Source: Thiocystis minor | GTDB lineage: Bacteria > Pseudomonadota > Gammaproteobacteria > Chromatiales > Chromatiaceae | NCBI RefSeq assembly: GCF_016653465.1 | Contig: NZ_NHSQ01000081.1 | Span: 1-64,000, forward strand | Direction: 5' to 3' | Length of the DNA: 64,000 bases | Part shown: in pieces, positions 34,185-39,882 of the stretch | Numbering within the stretch: the stretch's first letter is position 1 | Layout of the letters: the number at the start of each line of letters is the position of its first letter | Translations under genes and position numbers: made by a program | Notes under the pieces: model-generated | What the model was told of the DNA's origin: nothing | What the model saw: the letters and a program-made list of their open reading frames with translations, nothing else | The model's database searches: none

Positions 34185-35765
34185 ATGTTCGAGGCAACCA
34201 AGGTCGGCCGCTCGGTCAGCAAGGAAGATTACAAGGAGCAGCAGGAAGAACTGCGCACCCAACTGCTAGGCGTGCAGAGGGATCTGAAAGCATCCAACAT
34301 CCCGGTGATCGTGCTGGTCTCCGGTGTCGAGGCGGCAGGCAAGGGCGAGGTGGTCAACCGCCTCAACGAGTGGCTCGATGCGCGCGGCGTGCAGACCTTC
34401 GCCTTCTGGGACGAGTCCGACGAAGAACGCGAGCGTCCTCGCTACTGGCGTTTCTGGCGTTCGATGCCGCCGCGCGGCGAAATTTCGATCCTGTTCGGCG
34501 GCTGGTATCAGACCCCCATCGAACATCGTTTCAAAGGCCACTGCACCGATGCGGAACTGGACGGCGAACTGAATCGCATCGTGGACTTTGAGCGCATGCT
34601 GATCCAGGACGGCGCCTTGATCGTCAAGTTCTGGTTCCATATGTCCGAGCCGGATCAGAAGGCCCGCCTGAAGGAACTCTCCCGCGATGACAAGAGCCGC
34701 TGGAAGATGGTGCCGGACAAGAGCAAATTCTCCGAGCATTACGCCGCCTTCGAGCAAGTCGCCGAGCGAGTCATCCTGCACACTGACCGGGGCGTCTCGC
34801 CCTGGTACCTGATCGAGGCCGGCGACCGGCGCTATCGTGATCTCACCGTGGGCAAAACACTGTTGCACGCCATCCGCTCGCGGCTTGGCGAACCCACCGC
34901 CGAGGATCAAAACAACACGCTGACGGGGCCGGATCTGCCAAGCAGCGCGAGTGCCCAGATCACCCTGCTCGACCAACTGGATCTGTCGCTGGCCATCTCT
35001 CGCGACGATTATAAGACCGAGCTGAAACGTCTGCAGACCGAGATCAACGAACTCGCCTGGACCGCCTACAACAAAAAGCGTTCGACGGTCCTCATGTTCG
35101 AAGGGGTGGACGCAGGTGGTAAGGGCGGCGCGATCCGGCGGATCACCAACGCCATTGATGCCCGTCTCTACCGAGCGATCCCGGTCGCGGCGCCCACCGA
35201 CGAGGAAAAGGCCCATCATTATCTGTGGCGTTTCTGGCGGCACATCCCGCGCGCCGGCTATATCACGCTCTATGATCGTTCCTGGTATGGCCGGGTACTG
35301 GTCGAGCGGGTCGAGGGCTTTGCCGGCGATGCCGAATGGCGGCGCGCGTACTCGGAGATCAATCGATTCGAGGAGCAACTGGTCGACAGTGGTGTGATCC
35401 TGCTCAAATTCTGGCTGCACATCAGCCAGGAGGAACAACTCAAGCGTTTCAAGGACCGGGAAAATGTCCCCTATAAACGCTACAAGATCACCGAGGACGA
35501 CTGGCGCAACCGCGAAAAGTGGCCGTATTACAAAGAAGCCGTCAACGAGATGGTGGTCCGTACCAGCACCAAGCACGCGACCTGGACCCTGGTCGAGGGC
35601 AATGACAAACCCTATGCGCGCGTCAAGGTGATGCGCACCATCTGCGACAATCTGAGAGATGCGCTCCAGCGGGAACCTGTTCCCACCGTTGGTTACGTCC
35701 CTTGCGGGGACAAGCGGATCGTGGAGACGAGAAAATCAAACGGGGACTCCAACGGGGGGAAGTAA
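34185..35765 (+). CDS. pap: Polyphosphate:AMP phosphotransferase (two-domain PPK2)
   Basis: Class II PPK2 enzyme that uses polyphosphate to phosphorylate AMP to ADP. The 526 residues contain two fused PPK2 domains; the Walker A loops are GVEAAGKG (47-54) and GVDAGGKG (about residues 305-312), and the second has YDRSWYGRVLVERVEGF, the catalytic lid. The first domain is less conserved, as in other two-domain members. GAGG lies about 12 nt before ATG 34185. The last 29 or so residues (PTVGYVPCGDKRIVETRKSN onwards) look foreign to the family and run into a series of stem-loops, so the 3' end may have been replaced. Confidence 0.92.
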   Translation: MFEATKVGRSVSKEDYKEQQEELRTQLLGVQRDLKASNIPVIVLVSGVEAAGKGEVVNRLNEWLDARGVQTFAFWDESDEERERPRYWRFWRSMPPRGEISILFGGWYQTPIEHRFKGHCTDAELDGELNRIVDFERMLIQDGALIVKFWFHMSEPDQKARLKELSRDDKSRWKMVPDKSKFSEHYAAFEQVAERVILHTDRGVSPWYLIEAGDRRYRDLTVGKTLLHAIRSRLGEPTAEDQNNTLTGPDLPSSASAQITLLDQLDLSLAISRDDYKTELKRLQTEINELAWTAYNKKRSTVLMFEGVDAGGKGGAIRRITNAIDARLYRAIPVAAPTDEEKAHHYLWRFWRHIPRAGYITLYDRSWYGRVLVERVEGFAGDAEWRRAYSEINRFEEQLVDSGVILLKFWLHISQEEQLKRFKDRENVPYKRYKITEDDWRNREKWPYYKEAVNEMVVRTSTKHATWTLVEGNDKPYARVKVMRTICDNLRDALQREPVPTVGYVPCGDKRIVETRKSNGDSNGGK

Positions 35766-35973: not shown

Positions 35974-36540
35974 TCATTGGCTGACTGGCACGTAAGGCAC
36001 ATAGTAGAGCCAGGCATCCTGATCGACCTTGAGGTCGATGAGGCTGGTGTTGCGGACATCGAGGTGGACATAGATGGGTGTACCGGCCGGGATGACGATT
36101 CCATAACCGGTCGGAAAGGTGATGCTGGTGTTGGTGATATTGGAGCCCAGATAGGTGCTTCCGGAGGTCGCGCCATAGTCGAGCAACCCAGGTCCGGCGT
36201 ATTTCATCCGAAAGATGCAGCCTTGAGCTTCGCCGCCGTTGCATTGGTACATTTCGGGACGGGTGCTGACTTCCAGATCCGTGTAAAGGGCGATGTCCGC
36301 CTGCTCGGCGACCGACACGCCCAGGATGGCGACCGCGGTGCTGGGGGTCCAGACGCCCGCGCGGTCAACGTGACAGGTTTCGCCGCGGTGGCACAGACCC
36401 GTGGTCGCTTTAATGACCGCGGTCTTCAGGGGTTGGATGTCTCCTGCACTGGCGATGGTCGCCAGACTGAGAAGCATCAGGGCCGCGGGAGAGACCCAGC
36501 GCGTCGCTTGAGTGGTCGTTCTGTTCTGCATCAATCTCAT
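35974..36540 (-). CDS. Secreted protein of unknown function
   Basis: 188 residues from ATG 36540. Signal peptide at the N-terminus (WVSPAALMLLSLATIASA, cleavage near residue 34). The mature part is small, beta-rich (GSTYLGSNITNTSITF, GYGIVIPAGTPIYVHLDV), with four cysteines (TGLCHRGETC and QCNGG...GC) that could form two disulfides. No family is recognised. It is monocistronic, between pap and the convergently placed but divergent ABC gene; its promoter should lie in the 36541-36700 gap shared with that gene. Confidence 0.7.
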   Translation of the reverse strand: MRLMQNRTTTQATRWVSPAALMLLSLATIASAGDIQPLKTAVIKATTGLCHRGETCHVDRAGVWTPSTAVAILGVSVAEQADIALYTDLEVSTRPEMYQCNGGEAQGCIFRMKYAGPGLLDYGATSGSTYLGSNITNTSITFPTGYGIVIPAGTPIYVHLDVRNTSLIDLKVDQDAWLYYVPYVPVSQ

Positions 36541-36703
36541 GTTCAGGTCCGAATGGTTTGCGGAATCAAGAGTCTGGAAGTTGCCGCACGGCAAGTCGTG
36601 TGTCTACGCTATACTGCGCCGGCAGCATAGCCACTCGCACTCAACCAGCCCGGCACCCTAACCCGAGGCGGCCCTCTCTCCTAACACTTTCTAGACTCCC
36701 GCA

Positions 36704-38500
36704 ATGCGTACCGTCTGGTCCACTTTGAATAAACTCGGGGTACCCATCACCCCCGTCATCTGGCAACGCTTCTTCCAGATGATGCTGGATCTCGGTCGCT
36801 CCGAAGTTGGCGGAAAGGCCCGCCTTCTGTTCGCGCTTCTGATCATTTTTCTCTTTGCGATCAATGGATTGAACGTTCTGAATAGTTACGTCAATCGAGA
36901 CTTCATGACCTCGATCGAAAACCAGAACATGGACGGGTTCGTCTTTTACGCCGTGATGTATCTTCTCGTCATCGGAATCGCCACGGTCGTTGCCGTACTC
37001 TATCGCTACGCGGAAGAGAGTCTGGGCCTTCTGTGGCGAAAATGGCTGACGCGCCATGCCATTGACCGATATCTGGATGACCGGATCTACTTTCGGCTGC
37101 ACACCACTGGCGAGTTGACGAATCCGGATCAGCGGATCTCCGAGGACATCCGGGCGCTCACCGCCACCACGCTCTCCTTCACCCTGATGTTCCTGAACGC
37201 CACCTTTACGGTCGTGGCCTTCTCCGGGGTGCTGTGGAGCATCAGCCCACTCCTGTTCGTGGTGGCCGTCGCCTACTCCATCCTGGGTTCACTGCTCGCC
37301 ATCTATCTGGGCAAACCCCTGGTCAAGCTCAATTACAATCAGCTCGACCGGGAGGCCAATTTTCGCTCGCGCCTGGTCCATGTGCGGGAGAATGCGGAGT
37401 CCATCGCCCTGTTGCGCCGTGAGGGACGGCTCAAGGCCCGTCTGCGCGATCGCCTGGATGACCTGACCGCGAATTTCCAGCGCATCATCCTGATCAATCG
37501 CAATCTGGGCTTTTTTACCACCAGCTATAATTATTTGATTCAGATCATCCCTGCACTGATCGTGGCCCCACTTTTCATCAAGGGCCATGCGGACTTTGGC
37601 GTGATCACCCAATCCGCGGTGGCATTTACGCATCTGCTCGGTGCCTTTTCGCTGATCATCACCCAGTTTCAGTCCATTTCAGCCTATACGGCGGTGGTGG
37701 CAAGGCTCAATGCACTGCGCGATGCCATGATCCAGGAGCGCCCTGCTCGCTCGCCAACCGTTGAATTCAGCGAGGACTGCGGTAGCGTGGCCTTCGAGCA
37801 ACTGACCCTTTACGAGCCTCGTGACGGGCGGATCCTGGTCAAGGATCTGAGTCTGTCCATCCCCGCGGGGATCTGTCTTCTAGTCCGCTCGACGAGCGAA
37901 TCCGCGGAGAAGGCACTCTTCCGGGCGACCGCCGATCTCTGGCACCAGGGCGAGGGACGTATCCTGCACCCTGGCCATGACGCGATTTTCTTCTTGCCGG
38001 AACGCCCCTATCTACCGCCGGGCACTCTGCGGGAGGTGCTGTTGCGCACCGGACAGGAAAATGGCATCCCGGACTGGAAGATCCGCGCCAGCCTGAAAAG
38101 CCTGACTCTTGAGCACGCTCTGTTAAAAGCTGGCGGGCTCGACACGGAGCAGAACTGGTCGGATCTTCTGTCGCTCAGCGAGCAGCAGCGACTAGCCTTC
38201 GCGCGCGTGCTGCTCGCCGCGCCGCGCTTCGTCTTCCTGGACCACCCCAGTCGTTCACTCAGCGAATGCGCGGTCGGCGAACTGCTGAATCTTTTGCGCT
38301 ATCAGGACATCACCTATCTGACCCTGGGCGACGCGGCGGATGACCCACGTTTCTATGACCGATTGCTGGAGATCGCGGAGGACGGCTCCTGGCGGCTGAG
38401 TCCGCCCGGCGGATCGAAGACGATCGGGAATAACTCCGGCGCGGCGGCGAACGTCACGATTCCAAAGGCCTCGCCAAAACCCGATGGAGGCCCGCCATGA
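36704..38500 (+). CDS. SbmA/YddA-like ABC transporter with degenerate ATPase domain
   Basis: 598 residues: six-helix membrane domain of the SbmA/BacA-YddA family (about 20-340; GLLWRKWLTRHAIDRYLDDR, NPDQRISEDIR, REANFRSRLVHVRENAESIA), then an ABC ATPase-like domain. In the latter, Walker A is lost (CLLVRSTSESAEKALFRA at 391-408 in place of GxxGxGKS), the Walker B catalytic Glu is His (FLDH, 511-514) and the H-loop His is replaced (LGDA, 541-544). The signature LSLSEQQRLAFAR (489-501) is kept. It can hardly hydrolyse ATP as a homodimer. The stop overlaps the bglA-type gene start (ATGA). Confidence 0.85.
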   Translation: MRTVWSTLNKLGVPITPVIWQRFFQMMLDLGRSEVGGKARLLFALLIIFLFAINGLNVLNSYVNRDFMTSIENQNMDGFVFYAVMYLLVIGIATVVAVLYRYAEESLGLLWRKWLTRHAIDRYLDDRIYFRLHTTGELTNPDQRISEDIRALTATTLSFTLMFLNATFTVVAFSGVLWSISPLLFVVAVAYSILGSLLAIYLGKPLVKLNYNQLDREANFRSRLVHVRENAESIALLRREGRLKARLRDRLDDLTANFQRIILINRNLGFFTTSYNYLIQIIPALIVAPLFIKGHADFGVITQSAVAFTHLLGAFSLIITQFQSISAYTAVVARLNALRDAMIQERPARSPTVEFSEDCGSVAFEQLTLYEPRDGRILVKDLSLSIPAGICLLVRSTSESAEKALFRATADLWHQGEGRILHPGHDAIFFLPERPYLPPGTLREVLLRTGQENGIPDWKIRASLKSLTLEHALLKAGGLDTEQNWSDLLSLSEQQRLAFARVLLAAPRFVFLDHPSRSLSECAVGELLNLLRYQDITYLTLGDAADDPRFYDRLLEIAEDGSWRLSPPGGSKTIGNNSGAAANVTIPKASPKPDGGPP

Positions 38501-39882
38501 CGTCTGAAGTCAGCTTCCCGAACGGCTTTCTGTGGGGTGCGGCCACCTCCGCCTATCAAATCGAAGGCCAACCGCTCGCGGATGGCGCCGGCCCCAGTAT
38601 CTGGCACCGTTTTACCCACAATCCTGGACAGGTTGCCAATGGCGAGACCGGCGACCTGGCCTGCGATCATTATCGGCGCAGCGAGGAAGACATTGCGCTC
38701 ATGGCGGACCTGGGCCTGGGTGCCTATCGCTTCAGCATCGCCTGGGGCCGTGTGCTGCCGGAAGGTCGTGGGCGCGTCAATGCCAAGGGGCTCGATTTCT
38801 ACCGGCGTCTGGTAGATGCCCTGCTGGAGCGCGGTATCCAGCCCATGGTCACGCTCTATCACTGGGATCTGCCGGCCGCCCTGCACGATCGCGGCGGCTG
38901 GCTCAATCCCGACAGCCCCGCCTGGTTCGCGGACTACGCCCAAGTGCTGTTCCGCGCCCTGGACGATCGGGTGTCGCGCTGGGTGACGCTCAACGAACCC
39001 TGGGTCGTGACCGTGCCAGGCTATCTCGAAGGCGCGCTGGCGCCAGGACATCGGGATCTGTTCGAGGCACCGCGGGTCGCCCATCATCTGTTGCTGGCGC
39101 ATGCCGAAGCGGTCGGGGTCTATCGATCCATGGGGCGCCACCAGATCGGTCTGGCGGTGAATCTGGAGCCTCAGCACTCCGCCTCGCCAAGCCCGGAGGA
39201 TCAGGCCGCCGCCCAGCGACGCGACGCCTTTATCAACCGCTGGTTCCTCGACCCGCTCTTCCTGGGCACCTACCCGACTGAACTTGCCTCCCTGTTCGGA
39301 CTCGCCTGGCCCGACTTCGCCGACTCCGATCTTGCACGGATCCGCGCCGCGATGGCGCACGGAACTGGCGCTCGCTCGGACTTCATCGGCGTCAACTACT
39401 ATTCGCGAGGATTGGTTCGGGCAAATCCCAACAGCGTGCCGCTCGGAGCGGAGAGGGTCAGTCCAGCGGATGCCCTCTGTACCACCATGGGGTGGGAGGT
39501 CTATCCGCGAGGACTCACCGAAATCCTGCTGTGGCTCCGCGATCGCTACAGCAATCCACCGCTCTACATCACGGAGAACGGAGCCGCATTCAATGACCCG
39601 CCAGCGATGGACGGCATGGTTCCAGACCCGGATCGGGTGAACTATCTGCGCTCGCATCTGCACGCCGCCCACGAGGCTCTCAAACAAGGCGTGGATCTTA
39701 GAGGCTATTTCGTCTGGTCACTTCTCGATAACTTTGAATGGGCACACGGCTACTCCCAGCGCTTCGGCCTGATTCAAATCGATCCCCTAAACCAGACGCG
39801 AACCCTCAAGGCGAGCGCCCATGCTTACCGAGAAATCATCCGCGGCAATCGGATCCACTCGTCTGAAGGTTCGACTATTTGA
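38497..39882 (+). CDS. GH1 family beta-glucosidase
   Basis: 461-residue glycoside hydrolase family 1 enzyme, cytoplasmic (no signal peptide). FLWGAATSAYQIEG at the N-terminus, acid/base Glu167 in TLNEPW, nucleophile Glu360 in YITENGAAF, and the sugar-binding WSLLDNFEWAHGYSQRFG near the end. Likely cleaves beta-glucosides or beta-galactosides; the exact substrate cannot be read. It is translationally coupled to the degenerate ABC protein upstream, with a 4-nt overlap; this pairing suggests a shared substrate or simply a shared messenger. It converges on amtB. Confidence 0.93.
   Translation: MTSEVSFPNGFLWGAATSAYQIEGQPLADGAGPSIWHRFTHNPGQVANGETGDLACDHYRRSEEDIALMADLGLGAYRFSIAWGRVLPEGRGRVNAKGLDFYRRLVDALLERGIQPMVTLYHWDLPAALHDRGGWLNPDSPAWFADYAQVLFRALDDRVSRWVTLNEPWVVTVPGYLEGALAPGHRDLFEAPRVAHHLLLAHAEAVGVYRSMGRHQIGLAVNLEPQHSASPSPEDQAAAQRRDAFINRWFLDPLFLGTYPTELASLFGLAWPDFADSDLARIRAAMAHGTGARSDFIGVNYYSRGLVRANPNSVPLGAERVSPADALCTTMGWEVYPRGLTEILLWLRDRYSNPPLYITENGAAFNDPPAMDGMVPDPDRVNYLRSHLHAAHEALKQGVDLRGYFVWSLLDNFEWAHGYSQRFGLIQIDPLNQTRTLKASAHAYREIIRGNRIHSSEGSTI

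Follow-up and report, generated by a model that had tools for sequence, protein, structure and literature searches.

Introduction

Pseudo-ATPase halves are known among ATP-binding cassette (ABC) heterodimers, and SbmA is a known ATP-free relative of the YddA/ABCD-type half-transporters, in which a transmembrane domain (TMD) is followed by an ABC nucleotide-binding domain (NBD). In a 2026 study, SbmA is traced to a YddA-like ancestor and has a ladder of six glutamates, of which only E203 and E287 are listed as absent from YddA (PMC13316013). Relatives transport peptides, gentamicin, bleomycin and cobalamin (PMC12003926). The first GH1 enzyme with specificity for beta-1,2 bonds was reported in 2025 (PMC12369401). 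Here we analyse a YddA/ABCD-type gene that overlaps a GH1 beta-glucosidase gene in Thiocystis minor; the window, as we use the word, is the whole stretch of 64,000 nucleotides that contains the pair (contig NZ_NHSQ01000081.1, positions 1 to 64,000).

The protein has lost the catalytic residues of its ATPase and belongs to a clade in which these losses are universal. Comparisons with near relatives show purifying selection on the dead NBD that equals in strength that on the membrane domain, and many clade members are linked to genes for beta-1,2-glucans and osmoregulated periplasmic glucans (OPGs). We give about an even chance to the reading that the protein is an ATP-independent, gradient-driven carrier which salvages periplasmic beta-1,2-glucans for breakdown in the cytoplasm.

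Results

Loss of the ATPase motifs in a single clade

In profile searches the window protein matched PF06472 (ABC_membrane_2; E 3.9e-44) and PF05992 (SbmA_BacA; E 1.2e-15). The peroxisomal ABCD model TIGR00954 matched the C-terminal region at 4.8e-51, best over residues 354-565 and far under its curated cut-off, and the Pfam search returned no PF00005 match at E<=1e-3. When the AlphaFold model was submitted to Foldseek, Rv1819c (first, 6tqe) and human ABCD proteins ranked at the top. The NBD of this model was fair (pLDDT 59-89 per 10-residue block) and retained its fold, and the membrane domain was poor and of low confidence (mean pLDDT 59). The protein thus has the domain order of a YddA/ABCD-type half-transporter, a PF06472 TMD followed by an ABC NBD fold.

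All three motifs of a working ATPase (Walker A GxxGxGK[ST], Walker B DE and the H-loop His) are gone. The Walker A region reads LVRSTSESAEK, with Glu aligned to the Walker A Lys; the Q-loop reads FLPERPY, the signature LSLSEQQ, Walker B FVFLDH and the H-loop TLGD. An initial annotation, made from the window alone, had described the loss of Walker A, of the Walker B Glu (replaced by His) and of the H-loop His in a full reading frame. These points hold, the frame being open over 598 amino acids. Its further statement that the signature is kept is true only in part, as the Gly of LSxGE is Ser.

Homologues were drawn from named contigs, from family, class and phylum surveys and from fetched stretches; the closest relative with a name was an uncultured Thiocystis (97% identity). 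We fetched every row above 300 bits of the wider surveys plus a choice of others (60 regions), and 40 chosen regions from the surveys of Chromatiaceae. Collapsing sequences identical over the last 300 residues reduced 172 matching loci to 120 alignment rows including the query. As a first definition, dead sequences were those that lack the Walker A pattern, apart from nine further degenerate ones, and a tree computed from the TMD without the NBD then returned exactly these 53. The tree and ladder alignments exclude L113, whose frame is split, and L027, which is short and SbmA-like.

The 53 sequences form one clade (SH-aLRT 100), sister to the intact L114-L119 (99) and then to the intact L139-L143. 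The clade comprises purple sulfur bacteria, other Gammaproteobacteria and Rhizobium, that is, several families in two classes. Not one of the 53 retains Walker A, the catalytic Glu or the H-loop His, so that the three motifs do vanish together across relatives, a check which the initial annotation had proposed. The losses run throughout a single TMD clade, which suggests one loss of ATPase function whose outcome was then maintained in all these groups. Intact NBDs first appear at 47-48% TMD identity in the 120-row alignment (L114-L119, of which L119 stops before its H-loop). The close intact homologues without a GH1 neighbour that the initial annotation would have taken as a sign of decay did not turn up: no fetched homologue with at least 50% TMD identity was intact.

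The replacements follow a pattern. At position 514, that of the catalytic Glu, 38 members have His, nine Arg and six Lys; a Gln there in Ensifer canadensis L191, outside the 53, limits 'always basic' to the aligned sequences. The switch His of the H-loop, position 543, is Asp in 31, Glu in 13, another residue in nine and His in none, and a basic residue 514 is paired with an acidic residue 543 in 44 of 53. Position 433 of the Q-loop is Glu in 46 and Gln in seven. The signature keeps its Gly in 32 members, and Ser takes that place in 11, the window copy included; Ser/Thr at position 490 and Glu/Asp at 493 are invariant (53/53 each). New residues have become nearly fixed, namely Ala401 (50/53), Ala404 (53/53) and Tyr551 (51/53).

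A kept signature is the pattern expected of a degenerate ABC half, and the invariance of positions 490 and 493 could mean that the protein is one half of an asymmetric heterodimer which gives its signature to the site of an ATP-competent ABC partner. We consider this quite improbable: the signature Gly itself is lost in 21 of 53, and in the window genome (G000) PF06472 and PF05992 each match once, in both cases this protein. Four further genomes (G002, G003, G006, G032) likewise have one match of each, which makes a heterodimer with an intact ABCD half unlikely in all five. We rejected the ABCD heterodimer on finding no second PF06472 or PF05992 partner in the window genome; partners from other ABC families were not sought.

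The nine other degenerate sequences fall outside the dead clade. Degenerate NBDs of the same superfamily that stand apart from it in the tree are L182, L183, L184, L187, L120, L121, L023 and L165. In addition, L123 (L123:5189-9547, G080) encodes a separate degenerate ABCD-type protein with a shortened Walker A and a replaced Walker B Asp. Its gene lies between a different GH1 gene and a GH5-like gene, possibly an independent NBD loss beside glycosidases; among L120-L125, all outside the clade, only L123 has a GH1 (31% identity).

Purifying selection on the dead NBD

We estimated dN/dS by NG86 between the window copy and relatives, separately for NBD and TMD, in 14 comparisons (NBD dS was saturated in four). 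Against near relatives the NBD gave 0.065-0.14: L002 gave 0.065, L107 gave 0.066, and L104 and L089-L092 lay in the range 0.076-0.14. The membrane domain gave 0.06-0.14 in the same pairs.

These values bear on whether the window copy is a decaying, pseudogene-like gene, as the loss of three catalytic motifs and the split frame of one clade copy elsewhere (L113) might suggest. The window frame is open, its NBD is constrained against near relatives, and the losses are shared by the whole clade, which has members from two classes and several families. Decay is rejected by the dN/dS values and the clade-wide conservation, and we regard it as extremely improbable.

Comparison with the SbmA glutamate ladder

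The initial annotation had suggested an intermediate on the way to SbmA. To compare ladder positions, E. coli SbmA and YddA were put into the alignment, which is remote at this distance. The dead clade has acids at two of the six ladder positions, Glu/Asp at E193 (residue 147, 53/53) and Glu at E276 (Glu217, 53/53), and both are also present in most intact ABC relatives. E203 corresponds to Leu (Ile in one member), E269 to Asn (Asp in one), E287 to Arg (Lys in two, Ser in one) and E378 to Ala, Ser, Asn or Thr (Ile in one). The E269 column is uncertain, since E. coli YddA also has Asn there while the published account lists no ladder glutamates other than E203 and E287 as absent from YddA. In the TMD tree SbmA stands elsewhere, on a very long branch, and the clade lies beside intact ABC transporters. 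Ladder and tree both speak against an SbmA intermediate, which we reject with the caveats of the long SbmA branch, the remote alignment and the E269 column.

Acids other than the full ladder might still couple transport to protons or other ions, which would make the protein a secondary active importer. This is the strongest rival explanation, although we hold it unlikely. Asp215, near Glu217 in the membrane domain, is present in 53 of 53 clade members and in none of the intact set, and Glu217 and Glu/Asp147 are invariant. SbmA shows that this fold can be run by protons (PMC13316013), and LmrA and MsbA are reported to be ion-coupled (PMC6155054, PMC4979069). Four of the six ladder glutamates are absent, however; ATP-driven relatives often have Glu217 and Glu/Asp147 too, and Asp215 may serve packing or NBD docking instead.

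Two relatives have a further, strong PF05992 match, to SbmA proper (G001:C32:493-1431, 478 bits; G005:C1:462712-463593, 424 bits), so that these genomes encode SbmA alongside the dead ABC protein.

Linkage to beta-1,2-glucan and OPG genes

We compared the neighbours of 39 dead-clade loci with those of 19 intact controls (L114-L119, L136-L148), some of them with short flanks. Each place was counted as one locus, so L003-L006 and L012, which duplicate genome loci, do not enter the count, nor do L002 and the clade loci with a flank of about 1.5 kb. SOGP was identified by PF21958/PF21250, OpgG by PF04349 and OpgH by NF003958; the rhizobial PF10091 proteins, here called GH144, match XCC2207 (2.5e-107) and an endo-beta-1,2-glucanase (1.4e-35). 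A protein of about 1,030 amino acids is referred to as c8.

Many clade members are linked to beta-1,2-glucan and OPG genes. SOGP, GH94, GH144 or OpgG occurred at 21 of the 39 dead-clade loci, a number that rises to 27 when c8 is counted and to 34 with GH1 (GH1 19, c8 17, GH144 9, GH94 6, SOGP 5, OpgG 4). Among intact controls the count was one of 19, L114, with SOGP and c8. This intact copy sits in the same kind of slot as the dead copies L111 and L113, a natural comparison.

Several arrangements recur. The order ABC-c8-SOGP is found in L131-L133, and GH94-GH144-ABC lie on one strand in Ensifer canadensis L191. The ABC-GH1 pair is near OpgH-OpgG in L005/L091, L092, L095 and L096; in L005/L091 and L092, GH94-c8 is divergent from ABC-GH1 and is followed by OpgH/OpgG on the other strand. 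In Rhizobium binae the ABC gene, annotated 'SbmA/BacA-like family transporter', is beside a glucoamylase-family gene and a phosphoketolase gene. One clade member without the usual neighbours (L130:8240-10945, G329) adjoins an MGH1-like glycoside hydrolase (PF22422) instead.

Co-occurrence was surveyed in 194 Chromatiaceae genomes, 37 of which encode the dead-clade protein (>350 bits). SOGP_N was found in seven of the 194, all among the 37 and including the window genome. The c8 gene is present in 36 of the 37, and two genomes have it without a full ABC gene.

By eye, we saw no signal peptide in GH1, c8, GH94, SOGP or rhizobial GH144, and breakdown by the linked enzymes therefore appears to be cytoplasmic. 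This location matters for a further alternative, that the protein is an exporter or release channel through which glucans made in the cytoplasm pass downhill outward. Type IV folds often serve in export, the reactions of phosphorylases are reversible, and OpgH/OpgG lie alongside in four loci. Against these points, GH1 and GH144 are degradative families lacking a visible signal peptide, and OpgH is held to translocate its own product. Outward transport is accordingly rather remote in our estimate.

The c8 protein (L005:2729-5809, minus strand; L194:9072-12161, plus strand) is uncharacterised and co-distributed with the dead transporter. Part of it resembles CBM32, and it matches six-hairpin glycosidases weakly; its profile, searched against the PDB, found CBM32-like domains and one weak match to a polysaccharide hydrolase. 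AlphaFold from the single sequence gave no usable fold (pLDDT 38). It is possibly a new beta-1,2-glucan enzyme.

The GH1 gene and its overlap with the ABC gene

The window GH1 protein scores 575.6 bits against TIGR03356 (curated cut-off 478.5), which places it in GH1. TLNEPW and ITENGA presumably contain the catalytic Glu residues, and no signal peptide is evident by eye. The reported 4-nt overlap with the ABC gene proved correct (Table 1). A GH1 start 3 nt before the end of the ABC stop also occurs in L002, L004/L089, L005/L091, L090, L095, L096, L104 and L107 and is possible as an option in L097. The overlap is longer in L003/L108 and L105, gaps of 21 to 545 nt separate the genes in L006/L098 and L099-L103, and in L092 and L106 no overlapping start with ATG or GTG was found.

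The same GH1 (at least 60% identity) is encoded in 36 of the 37 Chromatiaceae genomes with the ABC gene and adjoins it by coordinates in 35; three of the 194 genomes have this GH1 without a full ABC gene. Conservation of the GH1 neighbour, which the initial annotation had asked about, thus extends through nearly all ABC-bearing Chromatiaceae and stops short of the rhizobial and SOGP-linked clade members, which are without it. GH1 as a fixed partner of the whole dead clade is rejected on these members. In G032, ABC and c8 lie on one contig and GH1 with OpgH/OpgG on another (L093, L094), showing that the pair can be split.

Overlap of the ABC and GH1 genes in many relatives, conservation of the NBD without catalysis and OpgG/OpgH nearby in four of 39 loci could also be explained if the NBD were a regulatory or scaffold part and the protein a glucan sensor or an anchor for GH1, and not mainly a transporter. 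We judge this improbable. The membrane domain is constrained as well and keeps PF06472, and rhizobial members with no GH1 nearby show the same NBD losses.

Upstream of the ABC-GH1 pair, window positions 34185-35765 encode a 526-aa protein with two PPK2 stretches. A 206-aa open reading frame (ORF) divergent from the ABC gene (35974-36594, minus strand) has a secretion-like N-terminus by eye and gave no Pfam match.

Table 1. Position and basis of the features of the ABC and GH1 genes in the window
Feature	Position	Strand	Basis
YddA/ABCD-type ABC half-transporter, ATPase-dead NBD, 598 aa	36704..38500	+	ORF, profiles, first Foldseek match Rv1819c 6tqe
Transmembrane domain, residues 1-345 as used here	36704..37738	+	PF06472 at residues 37-291; tree used residues 36-345
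Asp215	37346..37348	+	Alignment: 53/53 in dead clade, 0 in intact set
NBD, residues 362-565, fold kept, catalytic residues lost	37787..38398	+	TIGR00954 354-565; AlphaFold; dN/dS
Walker A remnant STSESAEK, residues 396-403; P-loop glycines and Lys lost	37889..37912	+	Sequence, alignment
Q-loop Gln to Glu, residue 433	38000..38002	+	Alignment
Signature remnant LSLSEQQ, residues 489-495; Gly to Ser at 492	38168..38188	+	Sequence, alignment
Walker B catalytic Glu to His514	38243..38245	+	Sequence, alignment
H-loop His to Asp543	38330..38332	+	Sequence, alignment
4-nt ATGA overlap, ABC stop / GH1 start	38497..38500	+	Sequence; recurs in several relatives
GH1 beta-glucosidase, 461 aa, TLNEPW and ITENGA present	38497..39882	+	ORF, profiles, sequence

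Discussion

For the window protein we infer import without ATP. As an ATP-independent carrier, it would act as a homodimer with the YddA/ABCD (type IV) fold and with NBDs that have become unable to bind or hydrolyse ATP, and would pass beta-1,2-linked glucans or their oligosaccharides from the periplasm to the cytoplasm. The source would be OPGs in purple sulfur bacteria and cyclic beta-1,2-glucan in rhizobia. Cytoplasmic enzymes would keep the level inside the cell low; in Gammaproteobacteria these would be GH1, SOGP, a GH94 phosphorylase and perhaps c8, and in rhizobia GH144. Periplasmic glucans can be abundant, and with enzymes emptying the inside import would run downhill, so that ATP may be dispensable; ion coupling would play no part. 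The NBD may have been retained as a structural and gating clamp of the dimer. Its dead site holds a basic residue in place of the catalytic Glu and usually an acidic one in place of the switch His, often as a charge-swapped pair.

The link to glucans comes from gene context, mostly that of relatives, and suggests the substrate. The same context fits the proposal of the initial annotation that a glucoside is taken up and then hydrolysed.

Several observations weigh against such a carrier. None of the genes counted is present at five of the 39 dead-clade loci (L109, L110, L112, L129, L130), and rhizobial members are without the GH1. At the window locus itself only GH1 adjoins; OpgG, and SOGP paired with c8, are on other contigs of that genome, and no dead-clade ABC gene occurs within the 18 kb read around the SOGP-c8 pair. 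An intact relative, L114 (L114:5876-13001, G097), adjoins SOGP and c8, showing that ATP-driven transport can fill that slot. The SOGP_N match is absent from 30 of the 37 ABC-bearing genomes. OpgG was present in nine of nine genomes examined, but it was sought only in genomes with the ABC gene, so this count offers no contrast, and relatedness, which the Fisher values calculated for the genomes and loci disregard, makes all co-occurrence counts non-independent. In the distant pairs L096, L099 and L101 the NBD evolved faster than the TMD (dN/dS 0.22-0.34 vs 0.16-0.21, with dS >1), and the clade copy L113 has a split frame.

A broader proposal, which we hold a little less probable than the carrier itself, is that an entire ABC clade has turned into ATP-free glucan carriers whose pseudo-ATPase domain was retained and re-optimised. 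Gradient-driven transport would then have arisen from primary transport along a second path, separate from that of SbmA, and the carriers would be the missing importer of a pathway that recycles OPGs and cyclic beta-1,2-glucans. In the accessible parts of the open-licence literature searched, we found no report that ties a YddA/ABCD-type protein to beta-1,2-glucan or OPG salvage. If the proposal is correct, the clade represents a living stage at which an ABC transporter gave up ATP yet kept the engine block. It could be set against near relatives that are intact, of which L114 lies in an operon of the same kind. Salvage of beta-1,2-glucans, which serve as osmolytes in the periplasm and as symbiosis factors, would also gain an import step, and the Rhizobium binae gene product named above would be suggested as a glucan carrier and not a peptide transporter.

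The window protein shares TMD family and domain order with YddA, BclA and Rv1819c (first Foldseek match Rv1819c 6tqe; phmmer 3.6e-57). In contrast, BclA requires ATP hydrolysis (PMC12003926), for which the window protein lacks the residues. SbmA/BacA (SLiPT) resembles it in having a related TMD and no ATPase function; SbmA/BacA has no NBD and a six-Glu proton ladder, whereas the window protein has an NBD (354-565) and two of the six acids. Cgt, of the NdvA/ChvA type, is likewise an ABC-type transporter of beta-1,2-glucan (cyclic) and is ATP-dependent. It is described as an exporter in the title of a reference cited in PMC11842490, and the comparison with the window protein is by description only. 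According to PMC12369401, SOGP or a GH1 beta-glucosidase adjoins sophoro-oligosaccharide transporter genes in Listeria innocua (lin1839-1841) and Streptomyces griseus (SGR_2422-2427). The transporters of those loci are binding-protein-dependent ABC importers, whereas here an ATPase-dead ABCD-type protein stands in the transporter's place.

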